IMG/VR virus record: IMGVR_UViG_3300034198_014458
Coordinates: 1-48,708 of that record
Source of the DNA: a virus
Reading direction: 5' to 3' (one strand)
Length of the DNA: 48,708 nt
The notes beneath the pieces were generated by a model, which ran no database searches, was not told the origin of the DNA, and saw only the letters and a list, made by a program, of their open reading frames with translations. Position numbers and translations under genes: made by a program. Position 1 is the first letter of the stretch. Each line of letters starts with the position of its first letter. Shown in pieces: positions 7,463 to 48,332 of the stretch.

Positions 7463-7732
7463 TTAACCTTGTGCTAAACGACTAGCTTCATATTCTTCTT
7501 GAACTTGTGCAGCAGTTTTTATATTAGCTGCAAGAACAATTTCTTCTTTTGTACCGGAAATTGGTTGACCTGCGGCCAGTTTACGTTGAACTTCTGCGTT
7601 AACAATCTCTTCAATTGCATCTTGGCATCTAGCATTAACTGCATTTTGTATCCACTCTTGTTGAGAAACAGTAACAAAAGAAAGTGCTTTATCTTGCGCC
7701 GCAGAAATTGTAATTGTATAATTTTTTGACAT
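7463..7732 (-). CDS. Small conserved tail-associated protein (89 aa)
   Basis: Soluble, helical protein with 'FVTVSQQEWIQNAVNARCQDAIEEIVNAEV', a sequence type found in small proteins of marine phage fibre loci. No catalytic motif seen. It lies 4 nt upstream of copy 3 of the adhesin and 10 nt after the 425-aa fibre, so it is probably part of the same assembly unit. Function unknown. Confidence 0.6.
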   Translation of the reverse strand: MSKNYTITISAAQDKALSFVTVSQQEWIQNAVNARCQDAIEEIVNAEVQRKLAAGQPISGTKEEIVLAANIKTAAQVQEEYEASRLAQG

Positions 7733-7742
7733 TTTAATCCTT

Positions 7743-9020
7743 TTATGCTACTAATTTGATTGAATAATTGCAGGCACCTTCAGCGCTTCCAGTTAACTGT
7801 TTTGAAGTACCTGCGCTTTGCCATGCAACAAATTCTAAGTAATCGTTTACCGATAGAGACACATAAGTTGAAAGTGATAAAGCTTCATAACCAGCTATTG
7901 ATTGGTGATAATCGTAAACAACATATGTACCATTTTTCTTTAACATAAATTCAACAGAAAAACCTCCAGTTGAGTCTTGAATTCTTATTTTTCCGTGAAC
8001 AAAGAAAACACCGGCAACTTGTGCAGTAAATCTTCCAGCAGAATATGATATACCAGAAGAACCTTGATTAACAAAATTTTGATCCCAATTTACAACAGCG
8101 TTTGTTGCTGTAGCTACAGTTTGTGCTGTGAACAATCGACCGGCCAATACTGGTTGACTTGGCATTGTAACACGATTTAGTGAATCAATAGAAATACTAT
8201 TTACACCAGTTGTATTTGCAACACTAAATGATGTTACATTTGCAAGTGCAATTGTTGATGCTCGAACACTTAATGTATTTGCACCAACATCTAACTGGAC
8301 TTGACCAGCAGAAGTGGCACCAAAACGACCTACTTGTGAAGTGCCTGCTGAATTGAATAATGAAACGTTGCCTTTAAATGATGAGTTCTCAGCAGCCAAT
8401 GTAATCGTTGGATTACTAATATTTGGTTGAACCAAACTGGTACCAGCAGGAATTGCAGTAATAACAGATGAACTACGGAAGCCTAAGTGCTTGATGTGTA
8501 CATTTGAACCACTTGGTGGTGCAGATGTGAATGTGATTGTTTGACCTGAAATTGTATAGTTGAGTGGTGCTCTTTGAACAATACCATCAACTGATACAGA
8601 TAATGTGTTTGCATCAGCAGGCGCTTCAGATAAAGCATACGTAGAAATTGCAGTATTACCGATATAGTTATCAACAGTAAACAAACGAATGTTGTTTGCT
8701 AATTTGTTGTATGATACTGAACCATCAGGTAAATAGACCTGAGCGCCAGAATCAAACTTACGGTAAATAACATAGATGTTGGAAGAACCAGTTGGAACTG
8801 CTTCTGTAAATATTAGTGATGTGCCGTTAACATCATAGGCAACGATTGGTTCTTGTTGAACGTTCTCAACGAAGACTTCAAGGTCAACCGCTTTCTGCAC
8901 GAAACGAGAAAGAGTAAATGTTGTTAGTGAACCGTTACCAGAGAATCTTTCCGCATCACGGGGTTCCGCAGCGGTTCTCATTGGGTCGAAAGGTAAATTA
9001 TTATTGCCGAGATATGCCAT
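7743..9020 (-). CDS. Tail fibre with repeated base domain and C1q-like tip (425 aa)
   Basis: The N-terminus MAYLGNNNLPFDPM and 'RFSGNGSLTTFTLSR' match the base of the 140-aa protein. The first ~190 residues contain two similar beta domains (each with an 'FTEAVPTGSSN' or 'FTSAPPSGSN' turn). The middle is a shaft ('VQLDVGANTLSVRAST'). The final ~135 residues (SAGRFTAQVAGVFFVHGKI, MLKKNGTYVVYDYHQS) look like a C1q/TNF-like trimeric head, as in the 177- and 179-aa proteins nearby. Likely a complete fibre. Confidence 0.78.
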   Translation of the reverse strand: MAYLGNNNLPFDPMRTAAEPRDAERFSGNGSLTTFTLSRFVQKAVDLEVFVENVQQEPIVAYDVNGTSLIFTEAVPTGSSNIYVIYRKFDSGAQVYLPDGSVSYNKLANNIRLFTVDNYIGNTAISTYALSEAPADANTLSVSVDGIVQRAPLNYTISGQTITFTSAPPSGSNVHIKHLGFRSSSVITAIPAGTSLVQPNISNPTITLAAENSSFKGNVSLFNSAGTSQVGRFGATSAGQVQLDVGANTLSVRASTIALANVTSFSVANTTGVNSISIDSLNRVTMPSQPVLAGRLFTAQTVATATNAVVNWDQNFVNQGSSGISYSAGRFTAQVAGVFFVHGKIRIQDSTGGFSVEFMLKKNGTYVVYDYHQSIAGYEALSLSTYVSLSVNDYLEFVAWQSAGTSKQLTGSAEGACNYSIKLVA

Positions 9021-9028
9021 AGTAGTAT

Positions 9029-9187
9029 TTATTCGTCCGCTGGTTCAGGTGTATTGCCTTCAGCAACCCACTTTAAATATTCTTGGTAGTCGGTGTTGGA
9101 TGGGTCAAAAGGAATATATGCGTTATCCGACAGACGCTTAACTTGGTCTTGCTCGTTACGAATATTTAATGGACATAATTTATACAT
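9029..9187 (-). CDS. Fibre-linked small protein, MYKL family copy 4 (52 aa)
   Basis: Starts [11 protein letters not shown] directly after the stop of the 370-aa adhesin and ends [20 protein letters not shown], identical to copies 1 and 3. At DNA level the C-terminal region is also nearly identical to the other copies, forming a dispersed repeat about 55 nt long. AATAAATA at 9026-9033 overlaps its stop and may be a late promoter for the following fibre. Confidence 0.8.
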
Positions 9188-10300
9188 TTATAACTCCGCT
9201 GATGCTGTTGCATGAAACTCATATGTTTGAGCTGCTACACCATTTGTTGATGTCTGAATATAACTAAGCAAAGAATTTGTGCCGTGGTTTTGTACACTAG
9301 ATACTGTAATTGTGGATCCAGAATTACTATAAACATTAATTCTGTCTGCGGTTCCTGTTTGTGAGTATAAAGTCACGGTTGGAGTTACCCTCATTGATAC
9401 TGGCAATCTTGGATTAAATGCTTTTAATCTAGATAAAGTCCCGTCTGCTAAAGTCTCACAATATACGCTGCCTACAGATGTACTTGTACCAACAGCAACA
9501 TCGGTATTATATGTTTTATAAAAATATCTCTGACACATTGCAAGTTCTTGTCCAAAGGGGCGGTATTCAAAACTTGAGGCCGTAGAACCTCTTTCCAATT
9601 GAACACCAGTAAATGCCCATGTAGCTCCAGTTGTAGCAACTACAGAAGTACCTCCTATTGCACCACGATAATCACCAGCAGCCCAAGCACCAGCAGTTCC
9701 TTGAAGTGTAGAGCCACAACCCATATCCCAATAAACAAGCATGCCAGTACCATTTGTTGCACCGACCCAAGTTCCTGATGTATCACCTGGAATTGTTATT
9801 GTTTCATACTCCCAAGTATTTGCTGAGTTTATGGTATATGTGAATGGGTAAGAACGGTCTTGTGCAGAATTTTGTATTGAACCACCAAAAGTACCAGTTA
9901 AACTAGAACGAACCCAAAATGATAATGTTATAGTTTTAGCGTTTACACTTCCCCAACCAAAATCGGCGGTGTTATAACCTTCAATTTTTTGAATTAATTG
10001 TGCTCTAGTGGAAGCACCTGATGCTGAGCCACTTGTTATTGTATAGAGTAAAGAAGCAGAAAAACCTACAGGTGAATTACTACTTTGAGCCAAAGTTCCT
10101 GTTGCAGAGCCGTTAGTAAAATATGAATATCTGTCAACAGAGTAAATTGTATTGTTGTTGGAAGCAACATTAGCTCCAGCATTCCTCTGGTCAACAGTCA
10201 TGGCTCCGTTTATAATTCGATTTCTAAAATGAGTCCAACCAGACGATACTGTTGAGCCGTCATCGAATGCGATATTACTTCCGCTGTATGATACAGTCAT
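9188..10300 (-). CDS. Tail fibre/adhesin with RIINGDMRIDQR-type domain, copy 4 (370 aa)
   Basis: Leader MTVSYSGSNIAFDDGSTV, then RNRIINGAMTVDQRNAGANV. The shared body includes 'FWVRSSLTGTFGGSIQN', 'TWEYETITIPGDTSGTW' and 'FTGVQLERGSTASSFEYRPFG'. The final ~100 residues (YNTDVAVGTSTSVGSVY onward) are distinct from the other copies. It is the most promoter-proximal of the four paralogues. A virion adhesin binding a surface glycan is the likely role; the ligand cannot be told. Confidence 0.82.
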   Translation of the reverse strand: MTVSYSGSNIAFDDGSTVSSGWTHFRNRIINGAMTVDQRNAGANVASNNNTIYSVDRYSYFTNGSATGTLAQSSNSPVGFSASLLYTITSGSASGASTRAQLIQKIEGYNTADFGWGSVNAKTITLSFWVRSSLTGTFGGSIQNSAQDRSYPFTYTINSANTWEYETITIPGDTSGTWVGATNGTGMLVYWDMGCGSTLQGTAGAWAAGDYRGAIGGTSVVATTGATWAFTGVQLERGSTASSFEYRPFGQELAMCQRYFYKTYNTDVAVGTSTSVGSVYCETLADGTLSRLKAFNPRLPVSMRVTPTVTLYSQTGTADRINVYSNSGSTITVSSVQNHGTNSLLSYIQTSTNGVAAQTYEFHATASAEL

Positions 10301-43984: not shown

Positions 43985-44695
43985 TTAATCCCATAGCGTT
44001 TGATAATACTTACCAAACAATCTAACACCATTACTTACACGTTCTTGGTGCTCACGTAGACCTTCCCAATCAACTTGCGCTTCTTTCAGCCAACGCAATG
44101 GTTTAGAGGTCTTACCCTCATCTTCTGGATGTTTAGAGAAATCAATTTCACCATGTTCAATCCAGAATTTACCCTCACCTTTATCATCATCACAAAGTTG
44201 TTCAAACGTCCAAATCAATTCATTTAGGAACCAATCATAACGTTTATGAACATCAGGTCCTTCAGAGGTGTCTTCACGATAGAAATCAAAAGTTGATTGT
44301 GAATCATAATCTTCTGTTTGTGTAAATCTTAGGTGTTCTGGTACATCTTCAAGTTCGATATAACCTGAACCATGTTTCACTTCTTTGAGTTGTTTCAACA
44401 TCGGCAGAATTATTGGAGAGAGGGTATAGTCCATAGACCAAACATCCCAATAATCAATCTTAACATACTCTATCGGTGGATGAACCTTATTCAGTACCCA
44501 TTGAATTGCTTTTGATACAGGTTCAACTTTATCGGATAACTTTTCAACCCATTTTGGATGGTCGATGTTTTTGTCCTCAGGAATATATTCCTTACTACGA
44601 GAACATTTAGACCAATCTGTCCAAAAGAATGCATAATCTATTAGTGTGTAAGGACTAATCCAATGATTACGAGGTTTACTAAGATAAACTTTCAT
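43985..44695 (-). CDS. Unknown protein at the end of the lipid cassette (236 aa)
   Basis: Trp/Tyr/Asp-rich soluble protein: 'MKVYLSKPRNHWISPYTLIDYAFFWTDWSKC', 'VEYVKIDYWDVWSMDYTLSPIILPMLKQLKEVKHGSG', 'RYDWFLNELIWTFEQLCDDD' and 'SNGVRLFGKYYQTLWD'. I recognise the type from marine T4-like phages but know no function. Its ATG overlaps the ketoacyl synthase stop (ATGA), so it is translated with the lipid genes. That may be chance placement or a functional link. Confidence 0.72.
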   Translation of the reverse strand: MKVYLSKPRNHWISPYTLIDYAFFWTDWSKCSRSKEYIPEDKNIDHPKWVEKLSDKVEPVSKAIQWVLNKVHPPIEYVKIDYWDVWSMDYTLSPIILPMLKQLKEVKHGSGYIELEDVPEHLRFTQTEDYDSQSTFDFYREDTSEGPDVHKRYDWFLNELIWTFEQLCDDDKGEGKFWIEHGEIDFSKHPEDEGKTSKPLRWLKEAQVDWEGLREHQERVSNGVRLFGKYYQTLWD

Positions 44696-45867
44696 TTATA
44701 TTTTCCAAATGCTAAAACAATATTTGTTCCACCGAATGCGAATGAACTGTTCAATACAACATCAATTTCTTTTTCAAACTTCTTAGTTGGCAAATAGATT
44801 CCTTCGGGAATATTTTTATCGGGATTGTCTAGGTGCCAATTTGGAATAATTGTATCACATTCTATAGTGGCAAGGCAAGCGATTGTTTCAATTGCACCCG
44901 CTGCACCTAAAGTGTGCCCATGCAACGCTTTAGTTGACGATACCGGTGGAGAAAGATTACCAAAAACTTCTTTGATAGATTCCAATTCAATCATGTCACC
45001 AACTGGTGTCGATGTACCGTGAGCATTGATATAACTTACCCGTGTCTTTGATATATCTTTAAGTACCTTTTCAAGTACCATAATTTCACCTTCTTTATTC
45101 GGCTTAGTCATAGATTCGGAACTACATGAGAATCCAAAACCTAAAATCTCAGCATAAATCTTTGCACCACGATTTAGTGCATGTTCAAGTTCTTCAAGTA
45201 TGAATATTGCCGAACCTTCGGCGATAACGATACCACTTCTATCAGCAGAGAATGGTTTAGATGCCTTTGTAGGTTCTTTACTATCCTTAGCGATAGCATT
45301 CATTGCTCGCCATGTTGCGACAGATAATTCATTCAAACAAGATTCTGCACCACCAGCTGCAATAGTATCAACCTCACCGAGAGCGATATATCGATATGCT
45401 TCACCGATAGCAACTGAAGCAGAAGAACATGCCGCTGAGTATGTGAAAACAGGACCTTTAATCTTCTCTTTGTATGCAATAAAGTTTGTTGCATTATTAG
45501 GCATGGAACACACCAAGGCGGTAGGTCTAGTGCGTTTAATTCTCTTTAGGTCGGAATATGATTGTTCAAGTGCAAGAGCACCACCGCCATATCCAACACC
45601 CAACATAACGCCTTCAACATCGGTGCCAGAATCCTTGTGTGCTTGTTGATAAGCTGCCCACGCTAAACGTGAGAATCTATCTGTAACACTTAAATCGGTA
45701 GAGTCCATATTATCAACGTCAACCTTTACTCTCGCAAGGTTAACACCGAATGGTTCATAAAACTCTACACCAGATTCACCGTTAAACAAAGCTTTCTTCA
45801 CTTCGTCATATGATGCACCAATTGGTGTTACACAACCAATTCCTGTAATTACAACTCTACGTTTCAT
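44692..45867 (-). CDS. fabF: Beta-ketoacyl-ACP synthase II-like (391 aa)
   Basis: Full-length condensing enzyme (FabF is ~412 aa). The N-terminus VVITGIGCVTPIG is canonical. The active-site Cys147 lies in 'YSAACSSAS', His283 in 'NAHGTSTPVGD', Lys313/His318 in 'STKALHGHTLGAAGA', and the glycine loop is 'NSSFAFGGTNIVLAFG'. The Cys-His-His triad marks an elongating, decarboxylating KAS rather than a KASIII. It would extend acyl-ACP with malonyl-ACP in the cytosol. It overlaps the desaturase by 11 nt. The nearby ACP is its likely substrate carrier. Confidence 0.92.
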   Translation of the reverse strand: MKRRVVITGIGCVTPIGASYDEVKKALFNGESGVEFYEPFGVNLARVKVDVDNMDSTDLSVTDRFSRLAWAAYQQAHKDSGTDVEGVMLGVGYGGGALALEQSYSDLKRIKRTRPTALVCSMPNNATNFIAYKEKIKGPVFTYSAACSSASVAIGEAYRYIALGEVDTIAAGGAESCLNELSVATWRAMNAIAKDSKEPTKASKPFSADRSGIVIAEGSAIFILEELEHALNRGAKIYAEILGFGFSCSSESMTKPNKEGEIMVLEKVLKDISKTRVSYINAHGTSTPVGDMIELESIKEVFGNLSPPVSSTKALHGHTLGAAGAIETIACLATIECDTIIPNWHLDNPDKNIPEGIYLPTKKFEKEIDVVLNSSFAFGGTNIVLAFGKYK

Positions 45868-46615
45868 TTTTCTTAATCAATCTAATAAATTGAGCAGCGA
45901 GGTCGAACTCCCACCACTTCACCTTCTCATCGAAACGACCTGGATATTTGTGGTGATTATTGTGCCATTCACCACCGACCCAGCCGGCAAATAAATCATT
46001 CTTTGATGTGTCTGGAGTTTCAAAGTTTCGATATGTAAATCTATGACCAAGATGGCAAAACACATTTACATATCCAACGGCAAGAAACGCCAATGCAACA
46101 CCAACATTATATGTCAAAGCAAGTCTATAGTCAATAAGCAATAAGGCAATATAGAAGATACCAATAATCGCAATATACCAATCATGTGTAAATTTAATCC
46201 ACTTATCACGTAGACCATTTGCATACAGTAAACTGGCACCTTTCATATTCCAACGAAAGAACATTGTGTTAAATTTACCTTTTTCCGGATTATGCGGGTC
46301 TAAATCGGTATCTGAATATCGATGATGCGTTCTGTGAGCAATCGTATATCCTACTGGTGAACCAAAAGTTACCAGACATGCTGAAAAGGTAATGAAGATG
46401 TGCCAGAATTTATTGAGTTTGTAAGAACCGTGTGAAAAATAACGGTGTAATCCTGCATGATGGCAGAAATGTAGTAGGAAAACGAACCAACCTAGAATCG
46501 CAAACCAGTACCAAGTTTGATACTGCAAAAGCAAAACTGGCAATGCCATTGAAGCAAATGCCAGTTGTAACAGAATTATGTTTTGTGAATTTTTATCGTT
46601 GGCACGAAATAACAT
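45857..46615 (-). CDS. Membrane fatty-acid (acyl-lipid/acyl-CoA, delta-9 type) desaturase (252 aa)
   Basis: All three histidine boxes are present (numbered from the ATG at 46627): H61-RYFS-H66, H98-RT-H101-H102 and H222-NN-H225-H226, the di-iron ligands of the stearoyl-desaturase family. 'SDTDLDPHNPEKG' after box 2 is also typical. Two hydrophobic hairpins flank the boxes (~15-55 and ~150-190). The start could be 46627 or the ATG at 46615 in TAATG; the latter is favoured for coupling to the micro-ORF. Regioselectivity cannot be read from the sequence. Confidence 0.9.
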   Translation of the reverse strand: MLFRANDKNSQNIILLQLAFASMALPVLLLQYQTWYWFAILGWFVFLLHFCHHAGLHRYFSHGSYKLNKFWHIFITFSACLVTFGSPVGYTIAHRTHHRYSDTDLDPHNPEKGKFNTMFFRWNMKGASLLYANGLRDKWIKFTHDWYIAIIGIFYIALLLIDYRLALTYNVGVALAFLAVGYVNVFCHLGHRFTYRNFETPDTSKNDLFAGWVGGEWHNNHHKYPGRFDEKVKWWEFDLAAQFIRLIKKNET

Positions 46616-46707
46616 TAAAATGGCCATCCATAGGTTAGTATTTCAAGGGTTGATACAAACAGAACACTAAGAAGTATGTAAATCAAATCCTTCTTAGTCA
46701 TCTTCAT
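46615..46707 (-). CDS. Membrane micro-protein between ACP and desaturase (30 aa)
   Basis: MKMTKKDLIYILLSVLFVST, then LEILTYGWPF and a stop in TAATG that overlaps the desaturase start. It has a basic N-terminus, one transmembrane helix of ~18 residues and a short tail. The start lies 4 nt after the ACP stop codon. Translation coupling and hydrophobicity argue that it is expressed. It might help insert or anchor the desaturase, or recruit ACP. No family recognised. Confidence 0.55.
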   Translation of the reverse strand: MKMTKKDLIYILLSVLFVSTLEILTYGWPF

Positions 46708-46711
46708 ATCA

Positions 46712-46975
46712 TCACTTGATTGAGTTGAGGTATCCTGCATATATTGAATCAAAGATATCTTTAAGATTTTTTGGAGCATCTGCATCGCCAAATTTGAATT
46801 TCATTTCATCTTCAACGTCAAATAAAAATTCAAGTATTTGAAGAGAATCCAATTTCTCATTTAATTTCTGTAAGTCTTCCAATGGTGCTTCTTCATCAAT
46901 TTCCATCAAGTTAACATTAAACTTGGATTGGAACATATCTGACACTTGTTGTTTAAGGTCTTCTCTAGTTAGCAT
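46712..46975 (-). CDS. acpP: Acyl carrier protein (87 aa)
   Basis: Start at 46975, directly after the AcpS-like stop (TAATATG) with SD AGGA. Acidic four-helix ACP pattern: the phosphopantetheine Ser44 lies in 'KLDSLQILEFLFDVEDEM' (DSL motif), with 'EEAPLEDL' before it and 'LKDIFDSIYAGY' as the last helix. It carries acyl chains for the synthase encoded in the same operon. It diverges from bacterial housekeeping AcpP (no canonical GADSLDT), so it is probably a dedicated carrier. Confidence 0.88.
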   Translation of the reverse strand: MLTREDLKQQVSDMFQSKFNVNLMEIDEEAPLEDLQKLNEKLDSLQILEFLFDVEDEMKFKFGDADAPKNLKDIFDSIYAGYLNSIK

Positions 46976-46976
46976 A

Positions 46977-47273
46977 TTATTTCCTAAGTGCAATCGCTAT
47001 GATTAAATCATCTTCATGTGAAAGTGTGAGCACGTATGAACCACTTAATACGTTACCCACATCTTCAACTTGTGGTGCCATACTTTTTGGAAATGAAATG
47101 CGAATGTCTCGGTATTGAATTTGTTTACCTTCTGCTTTGACAATCGATTCGTAACATGCCCAAAATTTTGCCACATCTTTTATGTTGGAATAATTGGTAT
47201 TGAATCTACGATTATATCTATTCAACCAATCAGATTTGAATCTAGATATTTTTGTAATGTCAGTACCAATCAT
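46977..47273 (-). CDS. acpS: Holo-ACP synthase (4'-phosphopantetheinyl transferase), AcpS-like (98 aa)
   Basis: Start chosen at ATG 47273 with SD AAGGATT; an upstream in-frame extension lies inside the tmRNA. AcpS motifs: 'MIGTDITKISRF' (Mg-binding Asp), 'FWACYESIVKAEGK' (the W/F..KE..xKA.G box with Glu) and the C-terminal 'YVLTLSHEDDLIIAIAL' (SLSH). At 98 aa it is shorter than typical AcpS (~120-126). It would load CoA-derived phosphopantetheine onto Ser44 of the ACP encoded next. Tight spacing supports partnership. Confidence 0.82.
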   Translation of the reverse strand: MIGTDITKISRFKSDWLNRYNRRFNTNYSNIKDVAKFWACYESIVKAEGKQIQYRDIRISFPKSMAPQVEDVGNVLSGSYVLTLSHEDDLIIAIALRK

Positions 47274-47287
47274 AATAATCCTTGAAA

Positions 47288-47475
47288 GTGGTGATTCTTC
47301 TGTTACGAGGTGAACCACCGAAACCCTAAGCGGCGATTAGGCTGCTAATGCGAACTGTGAGTCGTTTGCTTTTACTTTTTTGCTTCTACGACCGGGTTAC
47401 CCCAATCCTAATGGCTTTCACATTGCCAAGTTGTCCACTTCTGTACTTCTTGCCCTGTCGAAACTATTCATCCCC
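47288..47475 (-). ncRNA. ssrA: tmRNA coding piece of a permuted two-piece ssrA
   Basis: 5' end GGGGATGAATAGTTTCGACA at 47475 is the canonical tmRNA start. Its first seven bases pair with CATCTCC of the acceptor piece, leaving the G3-U70 wobble required for alanine charging. The tag ORF lies at 47337-47369. The stop codon sits in a CCTAA/TTAGG hairpin as in known tmRNAs, followed by a GGTGGTT/AATCACC helix (47319-47313 with 47296-47290). The 3' limit is approximate. It rescues stalled ribosomes with SmpB, which is not encoded here. Confidence 0.9.
47337..47369 (-). other. tmRNA proteolysis tag ORF: ANDSQFALAA
   Basis: Resume codon GCA, then AAC GAC TCA CAG TTC GCA TTA GCA GCC TAA. The encoded tag has ten residues, like E. 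coli ANDENYALAA, and keeps the AND start and the ALAA end read by ClpX and ClpA. The differences (SQF for ENY) fall in the SspB-contact region. Confidence 0.88.
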
Positions 47476-47562
47476 ATCATAAAGACTTTTTATAATCCAG
47501 AACATATAATTTATCCAAATTAATATGCCCCACATATAAACCCAATGCCATTCACCTAACAT
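47464..47562 (-). CDS. Trp-rich membrane micro-ORF in the tmRNA spacer (32 aa)
   Basis: ATG at 47562 preceded by AAGGA with 5-nt spacing. The product starts MLGEWHWVYMWGILIWIN and is one very hydrophobic helix with five Trp, ending KSLYDGDE; the stop TAG lies inside the first 12 nt of the tmRNA coding piece. It fills almost the whole spacer between the two tmRNA pieces. It may be a real micro-protein or a chance ORF in a spacer removed by processing. Confidence 0.4.
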   Translation of the reverse strand: MLGEWHWVYMWGILIWINYMFWIIKSLYDGDE

Positions 47563-47573
47563 AAAAGTCCTTA

Positions 47574-47638
47574 TGGTGGAGATGGGGGGATTCGCACCCC
47601 CGTCCAGAACACGTTTCTAGTTGCTTCATACAACCATA
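47574..47638 (-). ncRNA. ssrA: tmRNA acceptor piece (permuted two-piece ssrA)
   Basis: The 3' end is CATCTCC-ACCA (ACCA at 47577-47574), preceded by a perfect T arm: GGGGG-TGCGAAT-CCCCC (47601-47585). The loop has TGCGAAT instead of the usual TTCGAAT/TTCAAAT. CCA is encoded. The 5' end is not fixed; ~47638 is inferred from the promoter just upstream. UUCUG near 47610 can pair with CAGAA of the coding piece, part of the expected P2 helix. Acceptor piece before coding piece is the order of alphaproteobacterial and some cyanobacterial tmRNAs. Confidence 0.9.
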
Positions 47639-47644
47639 ATCTGC

Positions 47645-47650
47645 ATTATA
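47645..47650 (-). promoter_or_regulatory. Extended -10 promoter for tmRNA and lipid operon
   Basis: GTGTTATAAT on the minus strand (TATAAT at 47650-47645), inside the last codons of the nuclease gene. A start ~7 nt downstream would fall near 47638, exactly at the acceptor piece. No consensus -35 is seen. The element is identical over ten bases to the one at 41944-41949. Confidence 0.65.
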
Positions 47651-48332
47651 ACACAACCAATTCGTTTTTGCGGTAGTATTGTGTTACATACAATTCAAAC
47701 TCAGGTAAGTATTTATCTTTTTTCACTTCAAAAATCTGTGATTCTTTACTACCTTCTACACCAATAGCAACGACCAAATCGTCAATTGGTTGACCTGTAC
47801 GGTCTTCAAACATATCTGCATATGCGGCACATTGCATAAAATAATTTAGAATGCCGTCTGCTGATTTTAATCGTGATGCCGATTTAAAGTCAATGACTGC
47901 AATTTTACCTTTCCATTCGGCGATACAGTCAACACGACCTGCAATGCCAAGACGGTCAGAATACAATGCTTGTTCTAGTGAAAAGATTTTACCAATATTA
48001 TCATCAAGTTGTGGTTTCAATTGCACAAACAATTCTTTGACATTCGGCATCATTGATTGAATTTTCATTGGTGTCAATTCATTCAATAGATACTTCTCAC
48101 AAATGGTGTGTAATGCGGTACCTCTACGTGATGCCTTTGCGGCAATACGATTAGCTTCTTCTGCACCCACACGTTCACGCCATTCAAACAAAGCTTTCTT
48201 ACCATAAGGTGCAAGCACAGTAGTTACAGACGGATATTTGTTACCTGTTGGTGTGACATATTTACGACCTTCTGTTGTCGTTTCTGAAACTAAATCAAAA
48301 TCTAATTCAGGTATTTTTACAAATTCAAACAT
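47646..48332 (-). CDS. PD-(D/E)XK nuclease, RecB/Cas4-like (228 aa)
   Basis: All motifs of the RecB-type nuclease family are visible in order: GTALH (H75), E120, D135 in 'GIAGRVDCIAEW', D148-F-K150 in 'IAVIDFKSASR', and the QxxxY motif at 167-171 (QCAAY). No Cys cluster for an Fe-S site is seen, so it is nearer to phage exonucleases than to Cas4. Likely acts in DNA recombination or host DNA degradation. Its last codons contain the tmRNA promoter. Confidence 0.8.
   Translation of the reverse strand: MFEFVKIPELDFDLVSETTTEGRKYVTPTGNKYPSVTTVLAPYGKKALFEWRERVGAEEANRIAAKASRRGTALHTICEKYLLNELTPMKIQSMMPNVKELFVQLKPQLDDNIGKIFSLEQALYSDRLGIAGRVDCIAEWKGKIAVIDFKSASRLKSADGILNYFMQCAAYADMFEDRTGQPIDDLVVAIGVEGSKESQIFEVKKDKYLPEFELYVTQYYRKNELVVL

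Follow-up and report, generated by a model that had tools for sequence, protein, structure and literature searches.

Analysis of IMG/VR virus record IMGVR_UViG_3300034198_014458 over its entire 48,708 bases (hereafter the window) revealed a minus-strand operon that encodes an AcpS-like 4'-phosphopantetheinyl transferase (AcpS), an acyl carrier protein (ACP), a membrane fatty-acid desaturase and a FabF-like beta-ketoacyl-ACP synthase (KAS). The operon lies among phage genes, recurs in other uncultured phages and is under strong selection, and is thus a phage auxiliary metabolic cassette. The cassette is likely a type II acyl-ACP module for elongation and desaturation that is encoded by the phage and self-sufficient in part, and with which such phages probably remake fatty-acid chains on their own carrier during infection. 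The four genes are listed below in 5' to 3' order.

46977-47273, minus strand: AcpS-like 4'-phosphopantetheinyl transferase, short form (98 amino acids, ATG start; TIGR00556, viral profile against the Protein Data Bank (PDB), AlphaFold (AF2) model with Foldseek)
46712-46975, minus strand: ACP (87 amino acids, Ser44 in a DSL motif; NCBIfam ACP, viral profile against the PDB)
45857-46627, minus strand: SCD1-type membrane fatty-acid desaturase (256 amino acids; PF00487, three His boxes plus NxxxH)
44692-45867, minus strand: FabF-like KAS (391 amino acids; TIGR03150, C147-H283-K313-H318)

The gene coordinates had been given by an earlier reading made from the letters alone (the sequence-only reading) and proved correct when checked on the sequence; the catalytic residues it had named (AcpS Asp/Glu, ACP Ser44, the three His boxes and KAS Cys147-His283-His318) are all intact. 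It had also described four consecutive genes that overlap or abut. The genes are consecutive, with 1 nucleotide (nt) between AcpS and ACP and an 11-nt overlap of desaturase and KAS; ACP and desaturase, however, are separated by an 84-nt gap and do not abut.

Searched alone, the window AcpS scored under the cut-offs of both family models, with 21.8 bits against PF01648 (E = 2e-4, curated cut-off 25) and 26.8 bits against TIGR00556 (E = 4.5e-6, cut-off 45.35). Homologues from sister phages pass the family cut-off, the L114 homologue scoring 45.9 bits, and the profile of the viral family matched solved holo-ACP synthases in the PDB (E = 1.1e-14). Foldseek analysis of the AF2 model (pLDDT 93.7) returned AcpS and phosphopantetheinyl transferase structures as best matches (TMq ~0.79). 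D5, E42 and K46, invariant in the viral alignment, correspond to the Asp and Glu/Lys boxes (Mg-binding Asp, and Glu with the following Lys). The window protein is a short form, without the GTG motif after the helix and without the insert of E. coli AcpS; the AcpS proteins of the cassette phages L106, L107 and L114 have the full canonical form. By its profile matches and modelled fold, we identify the protein as an AcpS-type 4'-phosphopantetheinyl transferase, predicted to convert apo-ACP to holo-ACP.

The window ACP alone gave no PF00550 match and reached 22.2 bits against the NCBIfam ACP model (E = 9e-5, cut-off 71); the viral ACP family profile matched ACPs in the PDB (E = 2.7e-13). D43 and S44, in a DSL-type motif whose Ser begins helix II, are invariant, Ser44 having been checked in 13 viral ACPs. 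Four extra residues ahead of this motif are common to the cassette ACPs, which share a clade-specific loop. The family profile and conserved motif identify the protein as an acyl carrier protein.

The desaturase matched PF00487 at 57.9 bits (E = 1.7e-15, cut-off 29.7), and its profile matched SCD1 (4ymk, E = 2.6e-16). Its motifs are HRYFSH, HRTHH and HNNHH together with N188xxxH192, and the 12 viral desaturases compared all retain the His and Asn residues. The AF2 model (pLDDT 87) found stearoyl-CoA desaturases as its best Foldseek matches (4zyo, TMq 0.77). When aligned with SCD1, the positions matching R155-D156, which we take to be contacts to coenzyme A (CoA), were uncharged in 12/12 phage desaturases, and the R188-K189 segment fell in a gap. 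The non-conserved contact positions speak mildly against a CoA substrate. Among the candidate carriers (CoA, lipid or ACP), ACP is suggested by gene linkage and, weakly, by the uncharged SCD1 contact positions, and acyl-ACP is thus the putative substrate. One clear homologue was identified in an isolate phage, Pelagibacter phage Mosig (25% identity), and cellular relatives did not exceed 32% identity in a scan by two peptide patterns, which may miss others.

The KAS gave 342.8 bits against TIGR03150 (E = 2e-102), under the FabF equivalog cut-off of 493.75, and 120.9 and 98.2 bits against PF00109 and PF02801 (E = 9e-35, cut-off 20.8). The viral KAS profile matched KAS II structures in the PDB (E = 2e-85), and C147, H283, K313 and H318 are kept in all full-length homologues. 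In a tree of 60 ketoacyl synthases, the 12 cassette KAS formed one virus-only clade with 100/100 support, separate from E. coli FabF, FabB and the remaining KAS of viral contigs. The tree took in 12 cassette lineages; G065 was found later and brings the number of lineages to 13. Identity to the window KAS was 45-55% for members of the virus clade and did not exceed 40% for other sequences. Because it misses the equivalog cut-off and belongs to a separate viral clade, we classify the window protein as a FabF-like member of the KAS family and not as FabF proper.

Scans of viral contigs with single proteins had yielded little; the contigs were therefore scanned with family alignments, and the resulting loci were then searched with hidden Markov models. 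This analysis revealed 13 lineages with a cassette-type KAS: the window; G065 (L348); L195-L199 with L201 and L234; G015/G059 (L083, L103-L105, L113); L111; L112; L185; L109/L110; L114; L106; L107/L108; L102; and L202. An ACP gene lies upstream in the same operon in 13/13 lineages, either directly before KAS or before the desaturase that precedes KAS, and the cassette genes are mostly joined by 4-nt overlaps. The operon includes a desaturase in 9/13 lineages and AcpS in 3/13 (the window, G065 and the L195 group); a further three lineages (L106, L107 and L114) have AcpS within ~5 kb. The full AcpS-ACP-desaturase-KAS operon is present in three lineages, namely the window, L195-L199 and G065.

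Comparison of close pairs by the Nei-Gojobori method gave ratios of nonsynonymous to synonymous substitution (dN/dS) of 0.03-0.11 for KAS and desaturase, 0-0.24 for ACP and 0.07-0.2 for AcpS; distant pairs had saturated or near-saturated dS. The cassette genes are maintained by purifying selection and are not decaying copies. The sequence-only reading would have fallen if the genes never co-occurred and were degraded host copies; the co-occurrence check it proposed instead found the full operon in two further viral lineages, with low dN/dS. Chance open reading frames or misannotation are ruled out by the profiles, folds, conserved gene order and dN/dS.

In the proposed mechanism, AcpS would move 4'-phosphopantetheine from host CoA onto Ser44 of the phage ACP, and host FabD, FabH and the host acyl-ACP pool would provide malonyl units and acyl starters. 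Chains on the phage ACP would then be lengthened by the phage KAS, two carbons at a time, with host FabG, FabZ and FabI completing each round. A double bond would be introduced by the SCD1-type membrane desaturase, most likely before the chain leaves the ACP, and host acyltransferases would take the unsaturated, elongated acyl-ACP, placing a phage-chosen acyl chain in membrane or surface lipids. We infer both the participation of host enzymes and the delivery of the chains to lipids. A change in host membrane fluidity and insulation of the carrier from host enzymes, both put forward in the sequence-only reading, are hypothetical. Dependence on host partners fits the gene content of the cassette-clade records, because no FabA/FabZ-type gene was found in them (FabZ occurred only in a different cassette type) and most of them lacked an AMP-binding ligase, the exceptions being G015 and G059, where it lies at a distance from the cassette. 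The four cassette proteins had no matches in PADLOC, which covers anti-phage defence. A stronger version of this proposal is an orthogonal, virus-evolved pathway in aquatic T4-like and large phages, which with its own carrier, AcpS, KAS and desaturase(s) would make chains impossible for the host, for a special lipid or metabolite that aids infection, possibly with a co-transcribed transfer-messenger RNA (tmRNA). We regard this version as possible and put it forward tentatively.

Four sets of observations weigh against the proposed elongation and desaturation module. First, L102, L106, L109/L110 and L114 carry ACP-KAS without an adjoining desaturase; because of these four lineages, gene content identifies ACP-KAS as the core of the cassette and desaturation as an option. 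Second, AcpS was undetected in the large related records G055, G015, G059 and G073, which are possibly incomplete. Phages with ACP-KAS and no AcpS must, from their predicted gene content, use a host or unrecognised phosphopantetheinyl transferase, so that self-activation would not be obligatory. The sequence-only reading had called the carrier pathway private; in view of these AcpS-less relatives, that description does not hold universally. Third, the cassette contains no off-loading enzyme, and none was found among the clade phages. Fourth, among 141 desaturase loci outside the clade, 133 lack both ACP and AcpS within a distance of 1 kb. A general rule that a phage desaturase implies an ACP is rejected by these loci, and ACP-desaturase coupling is thus a property of particular lineages and not of every phage desaturase. 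Since most outside loci have no dedicated ACP nearby, such desaturases can work without one.

In support of the module, coupling of desaturase and ACP without the cassette KAS was observed at independent phage loci, namely L200 (desaturase-desaturase-AcpS-ACP), L002 (desaturase-desaturase-ACP) and L078 (desaturase-ACP), all with canonical ACPs. Genes flanking L002 (5481-10603), L200 (2720-8965) and L078 were identified by eye as 2-oxoglutarate (2OG)-Fe hydroxylase-like, GNAT-like and radical-SAM-like, and these loci are apparent biosynthetic islands in large phages. L057 (2867-12694), on a T4-like contig with a head-maturation protease, encodes an ACP, 2OG-dioxygenase-like proteins, a short-chain dehydrogenase/reductase (SDR)-like protein, a type III polyketide synthase (PKS)-like enzyme, AcpS and seven tandem desaturases. 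L011 (3561-8660) has a KAS followed by five tandem desaturases, with tail-fibre genes adjoining. L076 and L077 carry ACP-KAS with a KAS of another type and AcpS nearby, and L077 (12502-16362) also has a FabZ-type dehydratase. The records of L077, L076, L013 and L059, which are viral contigs, combine ACP-KAS with a FabZ-type dehydratase, and AcpS is near in L076, L077 and L088 (L013 record). Within the cassette clade, L202 has the operon ACP-desaturase-desaturase-desaturase-KAS, and a PF10118 predicted metal-dependent hydrolase (8619-9251) directly 3' of KAS is perhaps a further chain-modifying enzyme. L103, from a large phage, has an apparent phage translation initiation factor IF-1 (7596-7817, by eye) downstream of the cassette.

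Other explanations were weighed against the elongation and desaturation module. The cassette might make ordinary chains that sustain membrane synthesis as host fatty-acid synthesis declines, the ACP and KAS being a spare AcpP and FabF accepted by host enzymes. The KAS is indeed nearest to FabF in family libraries, and desaturase-less ACP-KAS is stable in L102, L106, L109 and L114; however, the KAS groups in a virus clade of its own, apart from the cellular FabF sequences that were compared, and misses the FabF equivalog cut-off, and the strongly divergent ACP and AcpS suit a dedicated pair better. We consider this explanation rather doubtful.

The main rival is a specialised (poly)unsaturated or acetylenic product, as in the ACP-plus-desaturase cassettes of polyyne and JamABC type. 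Tandem desaturases accompany ACP, AcpS or KAS at other loci (seven at L057, five at L011, three at L202), and the type III PKS-like and SDR-like proteins of L057 and the PF10118 hydrolase of L202 point the same way. In contrast, the window operon has a single desaturase and lacks tailoring genes such as a ligase or thioesterase, the richer clusters of L057 and L011 have different KAS types, and AMP-binding genes were confined to G015 and G059, distant from the cassette. We consider a specialised product unlikely.

A quite improbable alternative is that ACP and AcpS serve another role, such as the carrier-dependent alteration of some component of the phage or its host. AcpS lies several kb from ACP-KAS in L106, L107 and L114, and phage ACPs without fatty-acid synthesis genes exist (PMC5463345); against this, the ACP precedes KAS in the operon in all 13 lineages and carries the clade-specific loop, and the 4-nt overlaps imply coupled translation. 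Finally, IMG/VR has contigs with bacterial-type FabF and the isolate-phage records include apparent bacterial contigs, but host-derived passengers, degraded host copies or bacterial contamination are ruled out here, to near certainty, by synteny (several contigs have the cassette among T4-like genes for exonuclease, endolysin, helicase loader and gp32), by the failure of the two-pattern scan to find cellular desaturase relatives above 32% identity, by the virus-only KAS clade and by strong selection.

The window encodes baseplate proteins, tail-tube and head-closure proteins, a gp32-like single-stranded DNA-binding protein, a gp59-like helicase loader and a DsbA-like regulator, and because of these genes it is taken to be part of a T4-like myovirus genome. 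The minus-strand order is, 5' to 3', PD-(D/E)XK exonuclease, permuted tmRNA, AcpS, ACP, desaturase, KAS and phrog_11543 protein. The features around the four cassette genes are as follows.

47646-48332, minus strand: upstream T4-like PD-(D/E)XK exonuclease, phrog_298, synteny anchor (PHROG E = 2.5e-65)
47283-47686, minus strand: permuted (two-piece) tmRNA gene with tag ANDSQFALAA (ARAGORN, Rfam)
46615-46707, minus strand: 30-codon open reading frame in the ACP-desaturase gap, predicted membrane peptide, reality uncertain
43985-44695, minus strand: conserved phage protein phrog_11543, no assigned function, synteny marker (PHROG E = 6e-42)

The 30-codon frame has no counterpart in L195, where the desaturase begins directly after ACP. 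The KAS stop and the start of the phrog_11543 gene share 4 nt, and the phrog_11543 protein is perhaps co-translated with KAS; the gene occupies the equivalent position in L195-L199 and L201. An exonuclease of the phrog_298 kind lies 5' of the cassette in L195, L109, L114, L106, L107, L202 and L348.

The 3' end of the tmRNA is 9 nt ahead of the AcpS start codon. The gene matched RF04321 with 124 bits (gathering score 47) at 47337-47635 and RF01850 with 107 bits at 47283-47686. A permuted tmRNA abuts the cassette, upstream of AcpS or ACP, in 9/13 lineages (the window, L102, L106, L107, L108, L109, L110, L114, L195-L199, L202 and L348); it is away from the cassette in G015/G059 and G063 (L185). 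This linkage, which the sequence-only reading had not anticipated, is most simply explained by common descent of the locus. Joint transcription of tmRNA and cassette is possible, and no clear sigma-70 promoter exceeding shuffle background was found ahead of the tmRNA. The sequence-only reading had pointed to SAR11 genomes; the adjoining tmRNA instead scores over threshold as the betaproteobacterial type, which hints at a host other than SAR11.

Two-piece tmRNA is known in aquatic myophages, namely phage Melnitz and pelagimyophages (PMC9004378). As in the window, the permuted ssrA there belongs to a T4-like phage from an aquatic setting and is close to the region of the late-transcription coactivator; it lies upstream of the transcription coactivator under a glutamine riboswitch (PMC9004378), whereas that of the window abuts an acyl-chain cassette. 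No mention of such an adjacency was found in that paper or in the other literature searched, and the close association of cassette and permuted tmRNA is a regularity in its own right.

Lipid auxiliary genes are known in phages; the four-gene combination appears to be new. None of the isolate-phage records in INPHARED carries the cassette, and KAS, ACP and AcpS queries matched nothing there or bacterial-looking records. The KAS and AcpS matches (~30-36% identity), in records such as 'Listeria phage LM 4-11-1' and Acinetobacter phage MD-2021a, were rejected, as these records look like bacterial contigs. The INPHARED entries OR846827, OR848561, CAKLQH020000002 and others resemble bacterial chromosomes (FabF, AcpS, btuB, baeSR) and are a trap for surveys of auxiliary metabolic genes. 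No description of an AcpS-ACP-desaturase-KAS operon was found in open-licence papers, in keeping with the earlier suggestion that such a cassette is undescribed or rare.

Membrane desaturation of an ACP-tethered chain occurs in JamABC and polyyne-type pathways of bacterial secondary metabolism, which employ an acyl-ACP ligase. The window shares with them a membrane desaturase and a dedicated ACP, but has AcpS and KAS in place of the ligase. The desaturase genes described in phages by Roitman and colleagues reportedly come without a dedicated ACP, AcpS or KAS. Lipid desaturases of cyanophages and other phages (Roitman et al. 2018, as cited in PMC8224337) are, as far as that citation conveys, membrane fatty-acid desaturases carried as auxiliary metabolic genes like that of the window, which differs from them in having dedicated ACP, AcpS and KAS genes alongside. 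In predicted Rhodobacteraceae prophages, acpP-fabF-fabG likewise places ACP and FabF in (pro)phage regions (PMC8224337). There the order is fabG-acpP-fabF as in bacterial chromosomes, AcpS and desaturase are absent and the genes are possibly a host fab operon (PMC8224337), whereas the window KAS is a member of a virus-only clade that occurs in the genomes of T4-like and large phages. Erythrobacter phage vB_EliS-R6L also encodes an ACP (ORF 32), which was reported alone, with function not assigned and no AcpS, desaturase or KAS partner described (PMC5463345).

Phage lipid genes have so far been reported singly, mostly as desaturases or as a solitary ACP with no assigned purpose. An operon that recurs makes the question of why phages carry ACPs testable, with the partners, the residues and the expected mass shift named. 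If the proposed module is real, small divergent AcpS-ACP pairs from these phages would be a source for biotechnology, and some aquatic phages would rebuild the acyl chains of their hosts on a separate carrier, which would be a new layer of host takeover.

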